Shown here: piece by piece, positions 1,832-10,798 of the stretch
Numbering within the stretch: position 1 is the first letter of the stretch
Layout of the letters: every line of letters begins with the position of its first letter
Assembly (NCBI GenBank): GCA_020216655.1
Contig: JAIWNU010000166.1
Location: 1-10,798 of the forward strand
DNA: 10,798 bases
Direction of reading: 5' to 3'
Origin: Treponema sp.
GTDB taxonomy: Bacteria; Spirochaetota; Spirochaetia; Treponematales; Breznakiellaceae
Program-made: the position numbers and the translations under genes
Notes under the pieces: generated by a model
What the model saw: only the letters and a program-made list of their open reading frames with translations
Databases searched by the model: none
Told to the model about the DNA's origin: nothing

Positions 1832-1840
1832 TTAGGAAAT

Positions 1841-1846
1841 GGAGGG
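1841..1846 (+). promoter_or_regulatory. Ribosome binding site that sets the 1851 start
   Basis: GGAGGG lies 4 bases before the ATG at 1851. The alternative in-frame ATG at 1839 would place this motif inside the coding region and has only AGGAA directly abutting it. The Shine-Dalgarno position therefore favours 1851. Confidence 0.7.
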
Positions 1847-1850
1847 AACA

Positions 1851-2417
1851 ATGCCAAGCAAAGCGATGGATCTCTTTGAGGCTTACGCCCAGGACAAGCT
1901 ACCAAAAGACGAGGGATATATCATATCCTCATTTTTTAGCAATACATCAGCTTATTCTAAGTATGAGATTGTGTCATATTCCGGTGTAAAGTCCATTTAT
2001 TTAACCGATGAGGGGCTTACATTCCAAACCAACGGCAAAAAGCTGCATATTTTAATTGAGCCGCCCAATTATCCCCATAAGGCGATTGAGCCCTATGTGC
2101 GTTCATCCAACGAACAGATACCCCTGCGGTTCAGCGAACTGGAACAGATTGTGGCAAAAAACCAAACCAGAATCATGATTGCAAAAAAGCCGATTATTTC
2201 ATTTTCTTCTTTCACCATTCTGAAGCCGACGGGCATTAATTTTGCCCTCGCGTTCTACAGCCTCCCCGATCTTTACGATACGTTAGCCATCTTCTTTGAA
2301 AAGACCTATAACAAAGAAGCGGGAGTTCCTATGGCGGATGCTAAAAAAGCGGCGCTTAAAACTGTCGAAATTGTTAAAAAAACCATGAACTTCTCAGGGG
2401 AATTCAAAGACGAGTAA
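1851..2417 (+). CDS. Conserved-type hypothetical protein, 188 residues
   Basis: I do not recognise this protein. The start at 1851 (MPSKAMDLFEAY) is chosen because GGAGGG precedes it at good spacing; an in-frame ATG at 1839 would add four residues. It has no signal peptide, no lipobox cysteine and no clear transmembrane helix, so it is probably cytoplasmic. The N-terminal half alternates short hydrophobic strands with polar turns (IVSYSGVKSIYLTDEGLTF). A more helical C-terminal part follows, ending in a lysine-rich segment (DAKKAALKTVEIVKKTMNF) and an acidic tip. This would fit a small alpha/beta domain. It follows the TPR gene by 19 bases and precedes a strong terminator, so it is probably the last gene of that operon and may act with the TPR protein; that link is inference from position only. 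Confidence 0.75.
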   Translation: MPSKAMDLFEAYAQDKLPKDEGYIISSFFSNTSAYSKYEIVSYSGVKSIYLTDEGLTFQTNGKKLHILIEPPNYPHKAIEPYVRSSNEQIPLRFSELEQIVAKNQTRIMIAKKPIISFSSFTILKPTGINFALAFYSLPDLYDTLAIFFEKTYNKEAGVPMADAKKAALKTVEIVKKTMNFSGEFKDE

Positions 2418-2531: not shown

Positions 2532-5168
2532 TTAACTTGCCTGCTTCTCGATTTCGGCTTGAGCTACCGCAAGGAGTGCGATAGGAACTGAATAGGAAGA
2601 ACAGGACACATAATTAAGACCCGCATCCATACAGAACCGAACATTTGCGGGATTTGCCCCATGTTCGCCGCAGAGTCCGCAGACCAGATCGGGTCTTGTC
2701 ATTCTGCCCCGTTCTACCGCCATGACAATAAGTTCTTTAACCCTTGGATCCAAGGTACTAAAGGGATTTCCTTCCAGCAGATCAAAAAGCGTATAGTCAG
2801 GCATAAAGGACGTAAAGTCATCCCGCGAAATCCCCAAAGTAGTCTGGGTAAGGTCATTGGTACCAAAGCTAAAGAACTGGCCATATTTGGCGATTTCTCC
2901 GGCGCCGAGAGCTGCAGCAGGCAGCTCTATCATGGTACCGATGCGGTAGGGTACCGGTTTTTTCTGAAGCTCCGTACGAATTTCTTCCTCCACATCCACG
3001 ATGCCATGGTAATTTTTGCCCTCAATCTTTTTACCAAATGCGATGAGCTTGAGTTCATTGGCATTCATTACGATCGGCACCATGATTTCTGGGAAAACTT
3101 CTATTTTTTCTTCTCGGAGCTTAAAAGCAGCCTCAAAAATAGCCTTTACCTGCATCGCATAAATTTCTGGATATGAAACTGCGATACGGCAGCCTCGATG
3201 ACCTAGCATGGGGTTGAACTCGGCCAAGGACTCTATCCTTGCAAGTAATTCCGCCTTGTTTGGTTTTTTGCCCCTGGTCTTTTCAAGATAAGCCATGAAA
3301 ACCGCTAGTTCATCATCGTTGTGTGGCAGGAACTCATGGAGCGGAGCATCAAGGAGCCGGATGGTAACCTCTTTGCCAGCCATAGCCTTGAAAATGCCGT
3401 AAAAATCGTCCCGCTGCATGGGCCGGAGCCGCTCAAGCACCGCAGCGCGTTCTTCGATCGAATCAGAGAGAATCATTTCTCTAAATACATTGATTCGATC
3501 CTTATGGAAAAACATGTGTTCGGTTCGGCACAGGCCAATTCCCTCGGCGCCGAAGGAAAGCGCCAGATTCGCATCCCTTGGGCTGTCTGCGTTTGCCCGA
3601 ACATGGAAACCCTTTATAAATTTCTTCGCCATCGCGATATATTCTAAGAGCCCGGACTCGGTGGGATCGGGTTCTATAAGTTTTGCCTGTCCGAGATATA
3701 CCGTTGGGTCTCCATAGTAGGGAACGTTGAGGGTGATATAATCCCCTTCGGAAAAACTAATATCCCCGATGGTTGCTTTCTTACCCCTTATTTTCATGGA
3801 TGGTATTACGACAGAAACTTTTCCATACTGACGTGCAACAACAGAAGCATGGGCCGAATAGCCGCCTTCGCAGGAGAGAACACCCGTTGCAACCTCGATA
3901 GCCTTAACATCGTCTGCAAAGGTTGCAGGCATGACAAGAATAAAACGGTGATCCTCATTTTTCTGCAGTGCAGTTTTATGAGCTTCCAGGAGGGCGTCCG
4001 TATTAAAATAAACCCGGCCAATAGCGGCTCCCGGTGCACCAGCGATACCGCCGCTCCATTTTGGAAGCCCCTTGATTGCCGCGGTATCAATAATCGGGTG
4101 AAGTATTTCATTAAGCCGCGGCGGCTGAATCGCCTTAACCGCATACGCCTCATCTATGATTTTCCGTTTTGCTAAATCTAAAAGGAGCTTAATATCCGCC
4201 TGGGTCGATTTCTGATCCACCGGACGCTGTTCAATAAGCCATAATTTTCCCTTTTCGACGGTGAACCGGATCTGCCGTATTTCCTTAAAGCGATCTTCCA
4301 GGGTCCAGGCAATATTCTGAAGCTGCTTGAGATGTTCAGCACCGATTTTTTCAATTTCCTGTCCCGTAGCCCCAATTTCATTAAATTTTTCCCGGTAAAA
4401 CTCTCCCTGGAGCTTTTTTTCTCCCGTTACAATGTTTCTGCTATAAAACGCACCAGAACAAGAATCCTTCCCATAGTTCCCATACACCATAGGTTGAACC
4501 ATGAGGGCCGTATCATTATCGTTTTGGCTATCCAAGGCCAGTAATTTGGAAAGCTCCCTAAGGGTAATCATTAACTGTCCATCGGCGGATTCAAAAAATT
4601 CTGAGGGTACATAGGGCGCATAAAAATCCATGTACTCAAGAGCAGACTTTTCAGGATGGTCCGAGTCAATTTCCTTATTCAGTTTAGCAAGGAGGTCTTT
4701 GTAAAGTTTCAGCTTTTCCTGGTCTTCCTGTAAAGCCGCTATCTGTTCTTCAATTTTAAGGATTCCCCGAACCATGAACAGTACTTCGTGGGCCGCAAAG
4801 GTGTCCCCAACCCACTTTGCGAATCCGGGAATGACTGAGCGAACGAGGCCAAAATTATGCAAAGCAGGATAATTCGAAACAGCCAGATTGGAGGATACAA
4901 CGATCTTAAGAAGCATCGGATTTTCTGGATCACCAAATCGTTTCCCCACAATGGAAGCACATTTTTCGAGCAGGGTTTTTACATCCTTTTTTATATCCAC
5001 CGTGTCCAACTGCGATGCGAGGAGTGTATTTATAATAAACCCGGGGAGTATCGGGAACCCCAGCTCTGCAAATTCGTTCGCCTGCCTTCCGCGGATTCCA
5101 AGCAATTCTCCGTCCACCTTCTTAGGTATTACATCCGTGGAACTAAAAAAATGTATGCGGTTATCCAT
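2532..5168 (-). CDS. ppdK: Pyruvate phosphate dikinase family protein with degenerate ATP-grasp domain
   Basis: The protein has 878 residues, about the usual PPDK length. The phosphohistidine domain is recognisable at about 370-500 with GGYSAHASVVAR (putative catalytic His440). The C-terminal TIM-barrel PEP/pyruvate domain at about 515-878 keeps GLCRTEHMFF (Arg548), TIRLLDAPLHEFLP (Arg604), MLGHRGCR, TMIELP (Glu748), FGTNDLTQTT (Asn771-Asp772), CGEHG and the acid/base Cys856 in NYVSCSS. True PPDK interconverts ATP, phosphate and pyruvate with AMP, pyrophosphate and PEP in the cytosol. The N-terminal ATP-binding domain (1-320) is abnormal: the usual RSGA/MPGMMDT region reads as IVVSSN...NYPALHNFGL, and the DIEFT acidic pair reads as QIRFT. 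It also carries a charged, coiled-coil-like stretch at about 136-176. The start has AGGAGG at 5174-5179, 5 bases upstream of the ATG. The stop of the preceding TP0747-like gene is 14 bases away, so the two are co-transcribed. Family membership is secure; dikinase activity is doubtful. Confidence 0.9.
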   Translation of the reverse strand: MDNRIHFFSSTDVIPKKVDGELLGIRGRQANEFAELGFPILPGFIINTLLASQLDTVDIKKDVKTLLEKCASIVGKRFGDPENPMLLKIVVSSNLAVSNYPALHNFGLVRSVIPGFAKWVGDTFAAHEVLFMVRGILKIEEQIAALQEDQEKLKLYKDLLAKLNKEIDSDHPEKSALEYMDFYAPYVPSEFFESADGQLMITLRELSKLLALDSQNDNDTALMVQPMVYGNYGKDSCSGAFYSRNIVTGEKKLQGEFYREKFNEIGATGQEIEKIGAEHLKQLQNIAWTLEDRFKEIRQIRFTVEKGKLWLIEQRPVDQKSTQADIKLLLDLAKRKIIDEAYAVKAIQPPRLNEILHPIIDTAAIKGLPKWSGGIAGAPGAAIGRVYFNTDALLEAHKTALQKNEDHRFILVMPATFADDVKAIEVATGVLSCEGGYSAHASVVARQYGKVSVVIPSMKIRGKKATIGDISFSEGDYITLNVPYYGDPTVYLGQAKLIEPDPTESGLLEYIAMAKKFIKGFHVRANADSPRDANLALSFGAEGIGLCRTEHMFFHKDRINVFREMILSDSIEERAAVLERLRPMQRDDFYGIFKAMAGKEVTIRLLDAPLHEFLPHNDDELAVFMAYLEKTRGKKPNKAELLARIESLAEFNPMLGHRGCRIAVSYPEIYAMQVKAIFEAAFKLREEKIEVFPEIMVPIVMNANELKLIAFGKKIEGKNYHGIVDVEEEIRTELQKKPVPYRIGTMIELPAAALGAGEIAKYGQFFSFGTNDLTQTTLGISRDDFTSFMPDYTLFDLLEGNPFSTLDPRVKELIVMAVERGRMTRPDLVCGLCGEHGANPANVRFCMDAGLNYVSCSSYSVPIALLAVAQAEIEKQAS

Positions 5169-5182
5169 CTTAACCTCCTGGA

Positions 5183-6202
5183 CTAGAACAGCTTGAGCAC
5201 AGTACTGACAGGACCTTTAAGGAAGGCTTCAAACTGGGGACTAGCACCTTGCATTAAATATCTTTGCAATTTAGCCACATCCTTAATATCCTTGCCGGCC
5301 ACAGCAAACTGGATGGTGCTGCCGTGTTTTACCTTTCCCCATTTGAACAGCGAATTTATATTGATAATCCGCTCGCCTTCATAATAAATATAGACTTCCA
5401 AACCAGGGTATTTTGTCTTGTAACTTTCTATAATTCGTTTCCATGCCTCTACGTTTCCGTTATGAAACAGTTCATTCCGTACAACGACTGAATACATGGG
5501 AGTCATTCGCATACCTGCTTTTTGGCTTGAAGCGCTTGAAACATCAGCAGGTATCTTTTCGGCCTTTGCTGCCACTTTTTCTTTTGCTGGCTGCTTTGCC
5601 GCTTTTTTCGTTACTGATTTACCACTTTCTTTTGCGATAGCTGCTTTTTTCTCAGGCTTCGCAGGCTTTACAGAAAATTCACCCTTGTATAGCTCCTCGG
5701 GAATTTTCACCTTCTGTCCCTGGAACAGGGACAACGCAAGGTCAGCCGCTTTTTGACAAAGTTCATCAGTTGGTTTTCCCATCTTGCCTGCAAAGACAAC
5801 TAAAAGTTCGTGTTTTTTAAACGGTCCAATTGATGCAAGACTTTCTTTTTGTTTAGGATTAGCAACCTGAACACCCATATCAGGGTGATAATAAGCTACA
5901 ACTAGGTCCACCGCTTTCCAGCGAGAAAATTCGTCTGCTAAGGACGATAGGTCTTCAATAGCCGCAGTAAGATTTGCTGAAGCGGTCTTGTATCCCATTT
6001 TATCGACCAGAAGCATCCGTAAAATTACCGGTCGTTGTTCGTTTGAGAGTTCTTCTCCTTCCGCTTCTTCCAATAGGTCTGCTAAGTTTTTATTTGCCGA
6101 AATTAAATCGATAATGGATAAGGTTTTTTTTATATGCCGCACCGCAGTATTAAAACCAGCCCTGGTGGATAAAATATCCAAAGACCCCATATTATTTGCC
6201 AT
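5183..6202 (-). CDS. TP0747-like hypothetical protein next to cfpA
   Basis: A 339-residue protein with three visible parts. Residues 1-175 are mostly helical and include TRAGFNTA near residue 14. Residues about 178-225 form a low-complexity linker rich in lysine, alanine and proline. A C-terminal globular domain at about 233-339 is rich in aromatic and beta-type residues (MYSVVVRNELFHNGNVEAW, EVYIYYEGERIININSLF). There is no signal peptide or membrane helix, so it is likely cytoplasmic. By position between cfpA and ppdK it corresponds to T. pallidum TP0747, for which I know no established function. A short motif around GFNTA is shared with CfpA, which hints at a role with the filament. AGGAGG at 6208-6213, 5 bases before the ATG, supports the start. 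The cfpA terminator lies directly upstream. The function is unknown; the gene itself is clear. Confidence 0.85.
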   Translation of the reverse strand: MANNMGSLDILSTRAGFNTAVRHIKKTLSIIDLISANKNLADLLEEAEGEELSNEQRPVILRMLLVDKMGYKTASANLTAAIEDLSSLADEFSRWKAVDLVVAYYHPDMGVQVANPKQKESLASIGPFKKHELLVVFAGKMGKPTDELCQKAADLALSLFQGQKVKIPEELYKGEFSVKPAKPEKKAAIAKESGKSVTKKAAKQPAKEKVAAKAEKIPADVSSASSQKAGMRMTPMYSVVVRNELFHNGNVEAWKRIIESYKTKYPGLEVYIYYEGERIININSLFKWGKVKHGSTIQFAVAGKDIKDVAKLQRYLMQGASPQFEAFLKGPVSTVLKLF

Positions 6203-6215
6203 ACCAGCCTCCTAG

Positions 6216-6243
6216 AAAAAACGCCCCCGTTTTTCGGGGGCGT
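6216..6243 (-). terminator. Intrinsic terminator after cfpA
   Basis: Read on the minus strand, ACGCCCCCG and CGGGGGCGT form a perfect 9-bp GC-rich stem with a 5-base loop, followed by six Ts (6216-6221 on the complement). It begins about 20 bases after the cfpA stop (6264-6266) and ends 3 bases before the AGGAGG of the next gene at 6208-6213. There is no visible room for a separate promoter between the hairpin and that ribosome binding site. Confidence 0.93.
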
Positions 6244-6263
6244 CATCATGTAGCCGTAAGGGA

Positions 6264-8309
6264 TTAGACTTCCTTTAGGCCGTCGCTGCCGGCCGAACGG
6301 GCTTTACGTCCCCGTTTTGCGGACTTCTCATCTACAACACCTTTGGCTGCTCTTCCGCGGCCCCTGGAAGCTTTGGGCTCTGCCTTAACTGTTTCTGGAA
6401 TAAGGTTGTTATTTTCCTCTGCATTCAGCATATCCAGATAGGCTTTGCCGGGATCAAGAGCTGCAGGACCTTCTGCTGTGGATTCAGCAAAGGACTGGGC
6501 AATATCCTGACGAACCGTAGAGCGGCGGCGGCTGAAGGATGCAAATGCAGCATCCTGGAAGCCCTTGGAAACACCATGGAGGAATTCGTTCAGCACGTTT
6601 GCCATACCATCCAGTGTGGCCTTTTTGCGTTTGATCGACGTAATATCCACATCAAGGAGCAGACCGGGCTGGATATGATAAGGATTAATCATATAGTCAA
6701 ACCGGTTGAATTCCTTTTCGAGGAAGTTAAGCCGCTCTTCCATGACACGCCGCTGGATAGGATACTGGTATCCATACATGGACTTCATTTTTTCCCGCAT
6801 CAGGATAAGCTTGTGCCGCAGCTTGTCCTTTTCGTACAGATAGGTGCGGTTCATCCGCTCAACTTCTGTTTCAGCGGGCTTAATAAAGGAAATTTCGTCC
6901 CATACCTTGGCAATATCCTCATACAGCGGATCGCCGGTCCGTTCCTTAATGTTCTTCCGGATCTTTTTCTTGTAAATCTTAGCCAAATCGGCAAAATCGG
7001 TAACCCGGGTAAGGAACTTGGAATCTTCATAAATCATGTCCAGAACATCCCACAGGTGCTGGACTTCAGTCTCAAAGCTCTTTACCTGTACATCATAGGC
7101 CTTGCGCTCTTCAATCAACTGGGCATTGTCATAATAGCGCATGCGGATCTGGTACCGTTCATCGGGGAGGTTAGCCACATCGGTATCCTCATATTCCCGG
7201 ATGATGAGCTCGCGGGCATTCTTGAGGTTTTCGATGTACTGATAGCCCATTTTGGAGGTATCCAGAATGGAGGTAATCGAGTTAATAGCCGTATTAAAGC
7301 CCCGGTTGCGGATATTTTCCATATCCACAATCTTTTTAATATTTTCACGGATATTGAGCTGATCAAAGGAAGCGGGGTCAATTTCTGCCCGAAGGTCATT
7401 AATCCGCTCCATCAAGGCTTTGGCGATGATCGTATAGCGCTTGGATTTGGGATCCTCGACTTTGTCATCGGTATAGTTTTCCACCTTGTTTATTTTGGCG
7501 AAAATGATTTCGCTATCCGAAAGCTCATCTAAGCCCTGGTCTATCCGCTCATCTTTCAGTTTTTCGATTTCCTTATCGATGGTATCGATAATGTGCTTAG
7601 AAATCAGGTCCTTAATGAGGTATTCCACGGTTACCTGGTAGTGGAATATGGGGCTGATAAGCTCAGAATCCAGGATGTTAACGGAAAGTTTAACATCCGC
7701 AACAGTCTTGGGCTTTACGATATTGTCTTTGAAAGCACACTTAACAACCGAATAGGCATTTTCGCCCCGAATAAAGGCACCCACATCGGTTTTCTGCCGG
7801 AGCAGGCTGTTCGTGAGGTTTTCAAGGTCATTAACACCCCGCTGGATATGGCCCTGCAGGTGTCCGTACATGTTCACAATGGATTTTTCAATTTCGCCGG
7901 TGTTGAACTTGTCGGCACCGCCTACCTGGTCCAGAAGGTCCGCAATTTCTTTGGGGGTATACCGAGCAAGGACCTTGGTTTCTTCCTTATCGATATAGTT
8001 CCGGATCTTTTTGACCATTTCATCTTCAGCGGTAACCATGTACCGGTTGAACATGTTCTGGTAATTCTGGTTGAAGTAGTTATAAAGCTTTTCCTTTAAA
8101 CCACCCATAACATCCAGCCGTTCCAGAACTTCTTTAGGAAGTTTAGCCTGGAGATGGTGGAGTACTTTATTCGTTTCCTCTTCGAGGAGTTGGTTCACTT
8201 CCTTTTGCTGGTCCCGGTATTCCTGGGCTAGCGAGTTCCGTGAACCTACAGCACTCGGCTTCTCGGGATGAAATACATTCGGGCTCTTGGGCAGGTCAAT
8301 GGCTCCCAT
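6264..8309 (-). CDS. cfpA: Cytoplasmic filament protein A
   Basis: A 681-residue, highly charged and largely helical protein that I recognise as CfpA, which is about 678 residues in T. pallidum. In treponemes CfpA builds the ribbon of cytoplasmic filaments that runs under the inner membrane along the cell; loss in T. denticola is reported to disturb cell division and chromosome organisation. The N-terminus reads [18 protein letters not shown]. Long stretches have coiled-coil-like heptads, for example around 85-125, 225-260, 296-335, 390-425 and 480-540. There is no signal peptide or membrane segment. Residues about 636-681 form a basic, low-complexity tail ([20 protein letters not shown]). 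AAGGAG lies 8 bases before the ATG (8318-8323). A sigma70-like promoter with an A-rich upstream element precedes it and a strong terminator follows, consistent with high and partly separate expression. Confidence 0.93.
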
Positions 8310-9090: not shown

Positions 9091-10074
9091 GTGAATACGG
9101 TGCAGGATATTCTCGCATTTATCAATACCTATGACGCGTTCATTATCACAACCCATACGGGTCCTGATGCGGATGGTATTGGTGCGGAAATTATGCTGTA
9201 TCATATACTAAGGTCCTTAAAAAAACATGTCCGCATTATCAACGCAGACCCGGTTCCGCAGCGGTTCTCTTTTCTCGATCCCGATGGGGTCATAGAATGC
9301 TGGAACAATAGCCGCCATTTTCATTTACCCGAACAGGGCGGCATGATGATTGTCGATACTTCCGATGAATTTAATCTGGGATGTATGCTCGACGAAGCGC
9401 TCCCCCATGCCCAGGGTGTATTCTTAATTGACCATCATGAACAAAGCCCCTTTACCCATCTGGATGGCTATATTGATATATCCGCCGCATCAACTACCCA
9501 AATACTGGTGGACCTTACCCAGGCTGCAGGTCTTTCTGTCTCAAAAGAAATTGCGATCCCTGCTTATGCAGGATTGATCTATGACACGGGGTCTTTTATC
9601 TATTCAAAAACAAGTGCAAAAACCTTTGAAACCGCTTTACTTTTGGTTCGAGCCGGAGCGGTCCCCCACGAGATTTACCGGAACCTTTTTGAAAGCAATT
9701 CTCTCTCTGTATTGATGCTGCAAAAGCGGGTTATGGCCAGTCTCGATATTCAGGGACAGGGTACTGTTGCCATTCAAGTCATGACCAAGGCGGATCTGGA
9801 AGAAACGGGAGCTGCCTATGAAGACGCGGAAAATTTCATCAATATACCTTTACAAATTAAGGAAATAGAAGTTTCTATCCTTATAAAGCAGAATAAAGAA
9901 GGCTTTGTCCGCTGCTCCCTCCGTTCCAAAGGAAAAGTGAATGTGTCCCTCCTAGCCCAACAATTCGGAGGCGGGGGGCACAAAATGGCGGCGGGCTTTA
10001 AAAGCAATATGGGGCTTGAAGAAACCCGTACAAAGGTGCTACAAAAGGTTCTTACAGCTTTGGGAATGGCATGA
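9091..10074 (+). CDS. nrnA: DHH/DHHA1 phosphoesterase, NrnA-type nanoRNase/pAp phosphatase
   Basis: A 327-residue protein with the two-domain DHH/DHHA1 layout of NrnA. DHH motifs are all visible: THTGPDADGIGAE (His22, Asp26, Asp28), IVDTSDE (Asp89), IDHHEQ (Asp114-His115-His116) and YAGLIYDTGSF (Asp165), which together bind two metal ions. The C-terminal DHHA1 substrate loop is FGGGGHKMAAGF at about 292-303. NrnA removes mononucleotides from 2-5 nt RNAs and dephosphorylates pAp to AMP in the cytosol; c-di-nucleotide breakdown products are another known substrate class of this family. The start is set to GTG 9091 by the AAGGA position; an ATG at 9085 would add two residues. The vWFA stop lies 22 bases upstream, and the next gene starts inside this gene's stop (ATGA at 10071-10074), which indicates translational coupling. 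All catalytic residues look intact. Confidence 0.9.
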   Translation: MNTVQDILAFINTYDAFIITTHTGPDADGIGAEIMLYHILRSLKKHVRIINADPVPQRFSFLDPDGVIECWNNSRHFHLPEQGGMMIVDTSDEFNLGCMLDEALPHAQGVFLIDHHEQSPFTHLDGYIDISAASTTQILVDLTQAAGLSVSKEIAIPAYAGLIYDTGSFIYSKTSAKTFETALLLVRAGAVPHEIYRNLFESNSLSVLMLQKRVMASLDIQGQGTVAIQVMTKADLEETGAAYEDAENFINIPLQIKEIEVSILIKQNKEGFVRCSLRSKGKVNVSLLAQQFGGGGHKMAAGFKSNMGLEETRTKVLQKVLTALGMA

Positions 10075-10798
10075 AACATAGACACATTAATATATTTGTA
10101 CCTCTTTTTTTTATAATTACCCTGGGCGTCATTGTATATTTTTTATTCAATCAACAGAGTTTTTCTGTTCGAAATGCGCAAATGCGTCAGACAAAGGTCA
10201 TTACGCCTCAAACCAATAGCTATATTGCAGACAGCGCTCCTGATTCCGTCGCGGAGCGAATGGCCTACGAAGACTTAAATATGTCAAAAATTGCCCTCGC
10301 AAGCGATGAGCAAATTGTATCTATTATTACCCAAAACATGGATGGGGACCCTCAGGACGAACAAATCATTGCGTATCGCAAAAACACGGACTTGAACGGG
10401 CCAATTATGGTAGCCTACATCGATTTTGATGAGGCCACCGGTTTGTATAAGAAGGCCTGGGAACGACCTACGCTCGCAACAAAGGCACGAACCGTGCGGC
10501 TCTTACTGAAAGACCTTATAGGGGACCGAAGCAATTGTATTATTCTTGAAGGTCTTAATGATTCTGGGGAACAAACTTTAACAGCCTTTCTTATCCCTGC
10601 GTCTGGGTATGATATTAAAAAGATTGCCGAAATGAAGGTTGACGGAACCATCGTGATTACCGAAACAGATAGATCCCAGGCATATGCGATGGGTATCTCA
10701 TCTGGGGCAGCTTTTACGATTTCGACCTTTGGCAGAGATGTGGAATCCACCAATTTACTTGACCAGATTGAAATTAAATATGCCTACAATAAGGATTC
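10071..10798 (+). CDS. Pallilysin-related (TP0751-like) membrane-anchored protein, 3' end outside window
   Basis: The frame opens with ATG 10071, overlapping the nrnA stop in ATGA, and has no stop before the window end; 242 residues are visible. An N-terminal hydrophobic segment (VPLFFIITLGVIVYFLF, 10-26) follows a short basic start and has no lipobox cysteine, so it is probably a single-pass anchor or uncleaved signal. The outer part begins with a polar, probably disordered stretch (about 28-75). It then shows beta-rich units carrying acidic calcium-loop-like segments, NMDGDPQDEQIIAY (89-102) and DLIGDRSNCIILEG (148-161), similar in style to FG-GAP/VCBS loops. Context (cfpA, vWFA, then this gene) points to the treponemal pallilysin family, of which T. 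pallidum TP0751 is a host-matrix-binding adhesin and reported metalloprotease. No HExxH zinc motif is present in the visible part. The family call rests largely on synteny. Confidence 0.65.
   Translation, partial: MKHRHINIFVPLFFIITLGVIVYFLFNQQSFSVRNAQMRQTKVITPQTNSYIADSAPDSVAERMAYEDLNMSKIALASDEQIVSIITQNMDGDPQDEQIIAYRKNTDLNGPIMVAYIDFDEATGLYKKAWERPTLATKARTVRLLLKDLIGDRSNCIILEGLNDSGEQTLTAFLIPASGYDIKKIAEMKVDGTIVITETDRSQAYAMGISSGAAFTISTFGRDVESTNLLDQIEIKYAYNKD

Follow-up and report, generated by a model that had tools for sequence, protein, structure and literature searches.

Genes at the locus

The DNA analysed here is a 10,798-nucleotide stretch of a Treponema sp. genome (assembly GCA_020216655.1, contig JAIWNU010000166.1; hereafter the window), whose reverse strand carries a gene for a protein related to pyruvate phosphate dikinase (PPDK). 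This PPDK-like protein (2532..5168, minus strand, 878 aa) was characterized by open reading frame (ORF) prediction, Pfam and NCBIfam searches, alignment, AlphaFold2 and Foldseek; it is of the TP0746 type of Treponema pallidum and, by gene order, of the TDE0844 type of Treponema denticola. The gene for a 339-aa protein (5183..6202, minus strand), which holds the position of TP0747 and TDE0843 and is called the partner below, ends 14 nt upstream of its start, and farther upstream lies cfpA (6264..8309, minus strand), the gene for cytoplasmic filament protein A (NF040882, 1254.8 bits against a cut-off of 500; also by co-occurrence). TP0746, annotated as PPDK, stands in the same cfpA-partner-PPDK order. 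TDE0842-0844 of T. denticola correspond by gene order to cfpA, the partner gene and the PPDK-like gene, and the accessible part of the published record gives this order for TDE0844, likewise annotated as PPDK.

Loss of the ATP site in the PPDK-like protein

The fold and domain order of PPDK (EC 2.7.9.1; TIGR01828; PDB 1KBL, 5JVL) are present in the window protein: an ATP-grasp domain, here degenerate (residues 1-325; 4194..5168, minus strand), is followed by a swivelling phospho-His domain (residues 366-500; 3669..4073, minus strand) and a barrel that binds phosphoenolpyruvate (PEP; residues 501-878; 2535..3668, minus strand). A full-length AlphaFold2 model (m506d3f6d2f29) had a mean predicted local distance difference test score (pLDDT) of 89.6, and its best Foldseek matches were PPDK structures. 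Pfam recognized the PEP-utilising C-terminal and mobile domains in the 878-aa protein, with PPDK_N matching weakly, best at residues 270-324. The NCBIfam model for PPDK (TIGR01828) scored 672.1 bits, under its equivalog cut-off of 843.45, and that for enzyme I of the phosphotransferase system (PTS; TIGR01417) scored 96.5 bits, under its cut-off of 341.7.

We take the ATP/Mg ligands of PPDK to be Lys22, Arg92, Arg135, Glu279, Asp280, Asp321, Glu323 and Gln335 (Clostridium symbiosum numbering). These eight positions were scored in a MAFFT alignment of C. symbiosum PPDK, 71 canonical PPDKs and 73 rows of the clade to which the window protein belongs; the 73 rows include 72 distinct sequences and form 67 clusters at 95% identity. 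Two copies of the window (L003, L084), five fragments (L029, L138, L139, L068, L073) and a duplicate (L141) had been left out before the count. Window Arg26, Val90, Gln299, Arg301, Glu313 and Arg315 align with C. symbiosum Lys22, Arg92, Asp321, Glu323, Gln335 and Arg337, exactly as the original prediction had paired them by eye, and Phe131 stands at Arg135. All eight residues are kept in 71/71 canonical PPDKs, and no more than one in any of the 73 clade rows (none in 33; one in 40, namely Glu279 in 33, Asp280 in 6 and Asp321 in 1), so that the loss seen in the window protein is real and extends throughout the clade. Lys22 is replaced by Arg and Arg92 by Val or Ile in all 69 rows with a letter at these columns, Arg135 is gone from 73/73, Glu323 has become Arg or Lys in 70/73 and Met or Ile in the other three, and Gln335 is gone from 73/73 (Glu in 62); each of the five is kept in 71/71 canonical proteins. 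Four clade rows, begun at an internal Met, have no letters at columns 22 and 92, and their upstream residues carry the same replacements (GIRG, KIVIS). The MPGMMDT loop, described earlier as gone, is replaced in the alignment. The statement that only Arg337 remains was right in that Arg315 occupies this column, but Glu264 also sits at Glu279.

It is very unlikely that the protein is a true PPDK whose ATP site has moved or been remodelled. Such an enzyme would accord with the overall fold, with Arg or Lys at the Arg337 column in 58/73 rows, with the 33 rows that keep Glu279, and with the enzyme complement of T. pallidum described below. The alignment is less secure at the columns of Arg135, Glu279 and Asp280, which have gaps close by. 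In the other five, firmer columns, however, 72/73 rows have every ligand replaced and the remaining row all but one. Plant Arg95 and Glu324, which are taken as the equivalents of C. symbiosum Arg92 and Glu323, bind ATP directly, and their mutation likely abolishes activity, according to the accessible text of PMC5507339. The N-terminal domain is also evolving faster than the rest of the protein and is missing altogether from one genome, as detailed below. Shifted ligands in particular were set aside because a phmmer alignment placed no gap beside any of the six N-domain sites named in the original prediction; its gaps, one residue each, lie within the MPGMM loop and following Arg337. We conclude that it is highly probable that the PPDK-like protein is not an ATP-dependent PPDK.

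New basic residues are conserved in the old ATP site: Arg26 (69/69), Lys88 (69/69), Arg298 (73/73) and Arg or Lys at 301 (70/73). They would suit a nucleotide-free enzyme that converts PEP and inorganic phosphate (Pi) to pyruvate and pyrophosphate (PPi), the rebuilt N-domain binding Pi/PPi and phospho-His440 being discharged to Pi, which would feed PPi-dependent glycolysis and supply the PEP-to-pyruvate step of T. pallidum without pyruvate kinase. We consider this quite unlikely: Arg92 and Arg135 are gone, one genome lacks the whole domain but still carries the gene next to that of the partner, and the linkage to the partner and cfpA would be left unexplained.

Arg219 of C. symbiosum lies, as we assume, on the docking face for the His domain. 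Its column holds Asp or Glu in 62/73 clade rows. This residue is one of three changed in the C. symbiosum mutant R219E/E271R/S262D, for which the title of PDB entry 2r82 gives a second conformational state.

Retention of the phospho-His and PEP sites

The other two domains present the opposite picture. Window His440 (codon 3849..3851, minus strand), Arg548, Arg604, Glu748, Asn771 and Asp772 align with C. symbiosum His455, Arg561, Arg617, Glu745, Asn768 and Asp769, and these residues, together with the catalytic Cys831, are retained in 73/73 clade rows. This agrees with the original prediction for all but the Cys: it had named Cys856 as the catalytic residue, whereas Cys856 aligns with Cys854 and it is Cys833 (codon 2670..2672, minus strand) that aligns with Cys831. 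Because the His and PEP sites are intact, His440 very probably takes phosphate from PEP, as judged from the aligned residues.

The two parts of the protein also differ in pace. In trees built from either half, the PPDK-like clade is monophyletic within Spirochaetota with a support of 1.0. Over 300 sampled pairs, the mean tree distance within the clade was 2.46 for the N-terminal and 1.00 for the C-terminal part, versus 1.25 and 1.24 among canonical PPDKs; without the four late-begun rows the values were 2.40 and 1.03 for the clade and 1.22 and 1.24 for the canonical proteins. The ATP domain of the clade is thus diverging about 2.4-fold faster than the rest of the protein. Mean column entropy told the same story: 1.88/1.50 bits in the N-domain of the clade versus 1.14/1.02 in that of canonical PPDKs, and 1.06/1.08 versus 1.24/1.25 bits in the His/PEP domains.

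At an E of 1e-30 or lower, 240 of 296 Spirochaetota genomes gave a match of PPDK type, and at least 106 of the 296 hold the degenerate gene, classed by identity and score among the matches listed, down to an E of about 4e-148, with weaker pieces (e.g., in G109) left unclassed; one genome (G199) was classed from a contig-end piece of 46% identity. In a pattern-limited scan of contigs, the 27 closest among the best 80 of 176 loci (58-99% identity) all bore spirochaete titles, and the other 53 had at most 41% identity. A recent pseudogene or a sequencing artefact was set aside because the clade is phylum-wide.

The partner protein and its predicted HPr fold

The partner of the window matched no Pfam family. 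A structural model of the protein (mean pLDDT 76.2) predicts that its C-terminal domain (residues 234-339; 5186..5503, minus strand) has the fold of HPr, the identification resting on the model and Foldseek, with a weak profile match. The strand and helix order is beta-alpha-beta-beta-alpha-beta-alpha(-alpha), with His247 (codon 5462..5464, minus strand), the proposed phospho-acceptor, as the first residue of helix 1. A Foldseek search with this domain gave 341 matches at E 10. Of the best 50, which were listed, 35 were HPr or Crh structures, among them the first seven; the best probability was 0.99, with a template modelling (TM) score to the target of 0.71, and TM scores reached 0.74. The motif N[E/D]LFHNGNVEAW, which includes His247, was found in 83/83 loci holding the partner gene; 90 loci were scanned, some of which are the same site taken from two collections (this applies to at least L018/L091 and L027/L141), and the seven without the motif lack the partner gene there. 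Residues 243-255 and 285-292 form invariant blocks, which presumably correspond to the surfaces by which HPr meets enzyme I.

The C-terminal domain resembles known members of the HPr/NPr/Crh family (PF00381) in its predicted fold and in the His that opens helix 1; it differs in having a longer helix 1 and in being fused to a second domain. A plain Pfam HPr identity was rejected because PF00381 gave no match at the gene in nine genomes at E 10, and a doublecortin- or ubiquitin-like C-terminal domain, considered on the basis of the sequence, was dropped because the model has a single strand before helix 1 and HPr was the best structural match. A search of PDB sequences with the partner profile gave a best E of 0.059. 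The N-terminal domain (residues 72-160) shows the strand-helix order of HPr in the model and is perhaps a tandem HPr-like fold.

Co-inheritance of the PPDK-like gene, its partner and cfpA

The partner gene was found in 69/76 loci surrounding a degenerate gene; of the remaining seven, four (G062, G105, G172, G193) have it on the same contig 5-6.5 kb away, and in the other three (G084, G052, G211) it lies on a different one. Among the 296 genomes, 107 hold the partner, at least 104 hold it with the PPDK-like gene, and the five mismatches between the two, among the matches listed, fall in genomes that are 67-84% complete. A Fisher P for this pairing takes no account of shared ancestry and is set aside here. 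The cfpA gene is present in 110 genomes; at least 102 carry all three genes and, among the matches listed, 183 carry none. Because three families (f1, f2, f11) each contain genera with all three genes and genera with none, the trio tends toward joint gain or loss.

A natural deletion bears on the function of the pair. In one complete genome (G212, single contig of 4,059,867 bp), the partner gene is followed at once by one for a 586-aa protein, which has no ATP-grasp domain and keeps the His, both Arg, the Glu, the Asn-Asp and the Cys; the GTG start of this second gene overlaps the stop of the partner gene. The cfpA match in this genome (L222) lies apart from the module, with one in-frame TAA and an unusually long frame, and decay of the module is a possible alternative reading of the domain loss.

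Data from T. denticola offer some hints. Among 16 major proteins of its envelope fraction, TDE0844 ('PPDK') was band 1 and CfpA band 3, according to the accessible part of PMC3931704, and the accessible part of PMC3914990 lists TDE0842-0844 as repressed together with other oral species. Co-inheritance with cfpA and abundance alongside CfpA in that fraction would also fit a PPDK relic of little or no catalytic activity that belongs to the filament as a PEP sensor or a structural component, the HPr-like domain being a docking module and not a phospho-carrier. We regard this as unlikely, in that an invariant phospho-His, PEP ligands and Cys (73/73) and an invariant partner His (83/83 loci) exceed the needs of a scaffold.

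The PEP-to-pyruvate step in T. pallidum and in the window organism

The original prediction held that the loss would matter for glycolysis if this were the only PPDK of the organism, and proposed a search for a second ppdK or a pyruvate kinase. In the window genome both turned up: a pyruvate kinase match, and the N-terminus of a canonical PPDK at the end of contig C78, of which a PEP-barrel piece on contig C70 is taken as the other end. A near relative (G194) has a whole canonical PPDK. The window genome also encodes, on contig C153 (L001, 829-3597), a 922-aa protein with a PPDK_N match and a make-up unlike that of PPDK.

T. pallidum is a different case. One of the genomes (G056) is taken as T. 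pallidum Nichols or a near-identical strain because residues Ala869 (nt 810770-810772) and Pro655 (nt 811412-811414) of its 901-aa copy fall on published TP0746 variant positions, A869T (810772) and P655S (811414), in the accessible text of PMC10013896; TP0746 is given as 901 aa in that of PMC3373638. Comparison with TP0746, also suggested in the original prediction, placed it in the same clade with the same loss of ATP-site residues. In this genome a search for pyruvate kinase gave no match, PPDK_N gave none at E 0.001, and the PEP-barrel matches were two, TP0746 and an enzyme I-like frame. For T. pallidum, then, with only the TP0746 version, the concern about glycolysis stands, and it falls away for the window genome. 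OAD_beta and PEPCK_GTP matches in the T. pallidum genome make available a candidate route from PEP through oxaloacetate to pyruvate, by PEP carboxykinase (PEPCK) and oxaloacetate decarboxylase, which the organism could use.

The enzyme I-like frame of T. pallidum (L180, 508-2580) is open over 690 aa and has a phospho-His-like motif; we take the gene to be one described as a pseudogene. We abandoned the notion that the PPDK-like protein stands in for an absent PTS enzyme I in T. pallidum, because this frame and an HPr are present.

Other features of the window

A G+C-rich, terminator-like hairpin found by consensus scan lies between cfpA and the partner gene (6220..6244, minus strand) and could attenuate read-through out of cfpA. 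A second one (2454-2495) lies between the PPDK-like gene and a convergent 192-aa ORF (1839-2417, plus strand), which occurs near the PPDK-like gene in many loci and whose product matched neither a Pfam nor an NCBIfam model at E values of up to 1. Such sites are at chance level (9 found, 8.9 expected), and a promoter scan of the window was at or below chance (8 versus 11.1 expected). A pallilysin-related adhesin-like gene begins at 10071-10796 (plus strand; NF033751, 180 bits) and is truncated by the window end.

A proposed PEP-driven phosphorelay

Our best reading, to which we give a probability of about 0.6, is a filament-linked relay from PEP through His440 to His247 of the partner, in which both the transfer and the effect on the filament are what we infer. 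An ancestral PPDK would have lost its use of ATP. His440 would receive phosphate from PEP in the C-terminal barrel and pyruvate would be released, just as PTS enzyme I and the PEP half-reaction of PPDK proceed. The phosphate would then pass to His247 of the HPr-fold domain instead of to AMP and PPi; the two proteins would form, on the scaffold of a PPDK, a relay resembling the PTS and coupled to the co-inherited CfpA. That the phosphate is probably handed to the neighbouring HPr-like domain follows from the gene pairing, the predicted HPr fold and the invariant His, which this step explains best. Among the roles offered by the original prediction, the transfer of phosphate to a different acceptor in the manner of PTS enzyme I has thus gained independent support, from an adjoining co-inherited partner, its predicted fold and invariant His, and the domain loss in G212. 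Action on or at the cytoplasmic filament is a more tentative suggestion, drawn from co-inheritance and cofractionation.

Several observations weigh against this relay. On the side of the PPDK-like protein, the N-terminal HPr-docking domain of enzyme I gave no Pfam match up to E 1, and in one genome of the same genus as T. pallidum (G288) the frame is broken in two (L138/L223, single contig), through decay or sequencing error. The partner has HNGN (32/32 rows) where HPr has the His-Ala-Arg-Pro motif, and the ten-residue block that holds His247 has a pLDDT of only 62 (blocks from residue 231: 87, 62, 85, 90, 88, 75, 83, 90, 84, 68, 63). No Foldseek match of the partner reached E 0.001 (best, 0.052); PF00381 gave no match at the partner gene in nine genomes at E 10 and was absent from the 25 families listed out of 30 weak ones. 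Comparison of the C-terminal domain with HPr by hhalign was weak (P 0.024 over 46 columns, in the register expected of HPr) and was equalled by 6 of 300 column permutations; with the full-length partner profile, hhalign paired HPr with a different, N-terminal stretch. An ordinary HPr and several enzyme I-like proteins are also present in all nine genomes examined, co-occurrence of the trio owes partly to shared ancestry and operon linkage, and the pairing in the envelope fraction could be ordinary cofractionation.

Compared with known systems, the PPDK-like protein shares with PPDK the three-domain order, the full-length fold, the phospho-His, the PEP ligands and the catalytic Cys, and differs in its lost ATP site, its family score and its pairing with a protein of predicted HPr fold. 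With PTS enzyme I and EI-Ntr it would share a PEP barrel with a swivelling phospho-His, an HPr-like acceptor and independence from nucleotide, but its sequence is nearer to PPDK. As defined by sequence, it falls outside PPDK and enzyme I, and the partner falls outside HPr; we do not class them there because, for each family, a defining feature that was looked for was absent.

An open-access literature search, with subscription papers mostly outside its range, turned up no description of a degenerate ATP site in these proteins and none of TP0747 as HPr-like; TP0747 went unmentioned in an open-access text search, and 0747 does not appear in the accessible part of PMC4403809. TP0746 is treated as a glycolytic PPDK in the accessible parts of PMC10013896 and PMC8525777, the latter tabulating T. 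pallidum ppdK among the most highly expressed genes, and its residues here say otherwise.

A wider proposal, which we hold to be doubtful, is that a spirochaete phosphorelay of PPDK and a cryptic HPr-like protein, driven by PEP, reports glycolysis to the filament or controls it, with T. pallidum glycolysis ending via PEPCK and a sodium-pumping oxaloacetate decarboxylase. To our knowledge, little is known of filament partners in spirochaetes. If the relay is true, phosphotransfer chains resembling the PTS would have arisen by a second evolutionary path, and there would be a chemical means of approaching the cytoplasmic filament of spirochaetes. For T. pallidum, the accepted metabolism has one step that rests on an annotation contradicted by the TP0746 sequence, because the ATP-site residues are lost and the genome gave no pyruvate kinase or PPDK_N match.

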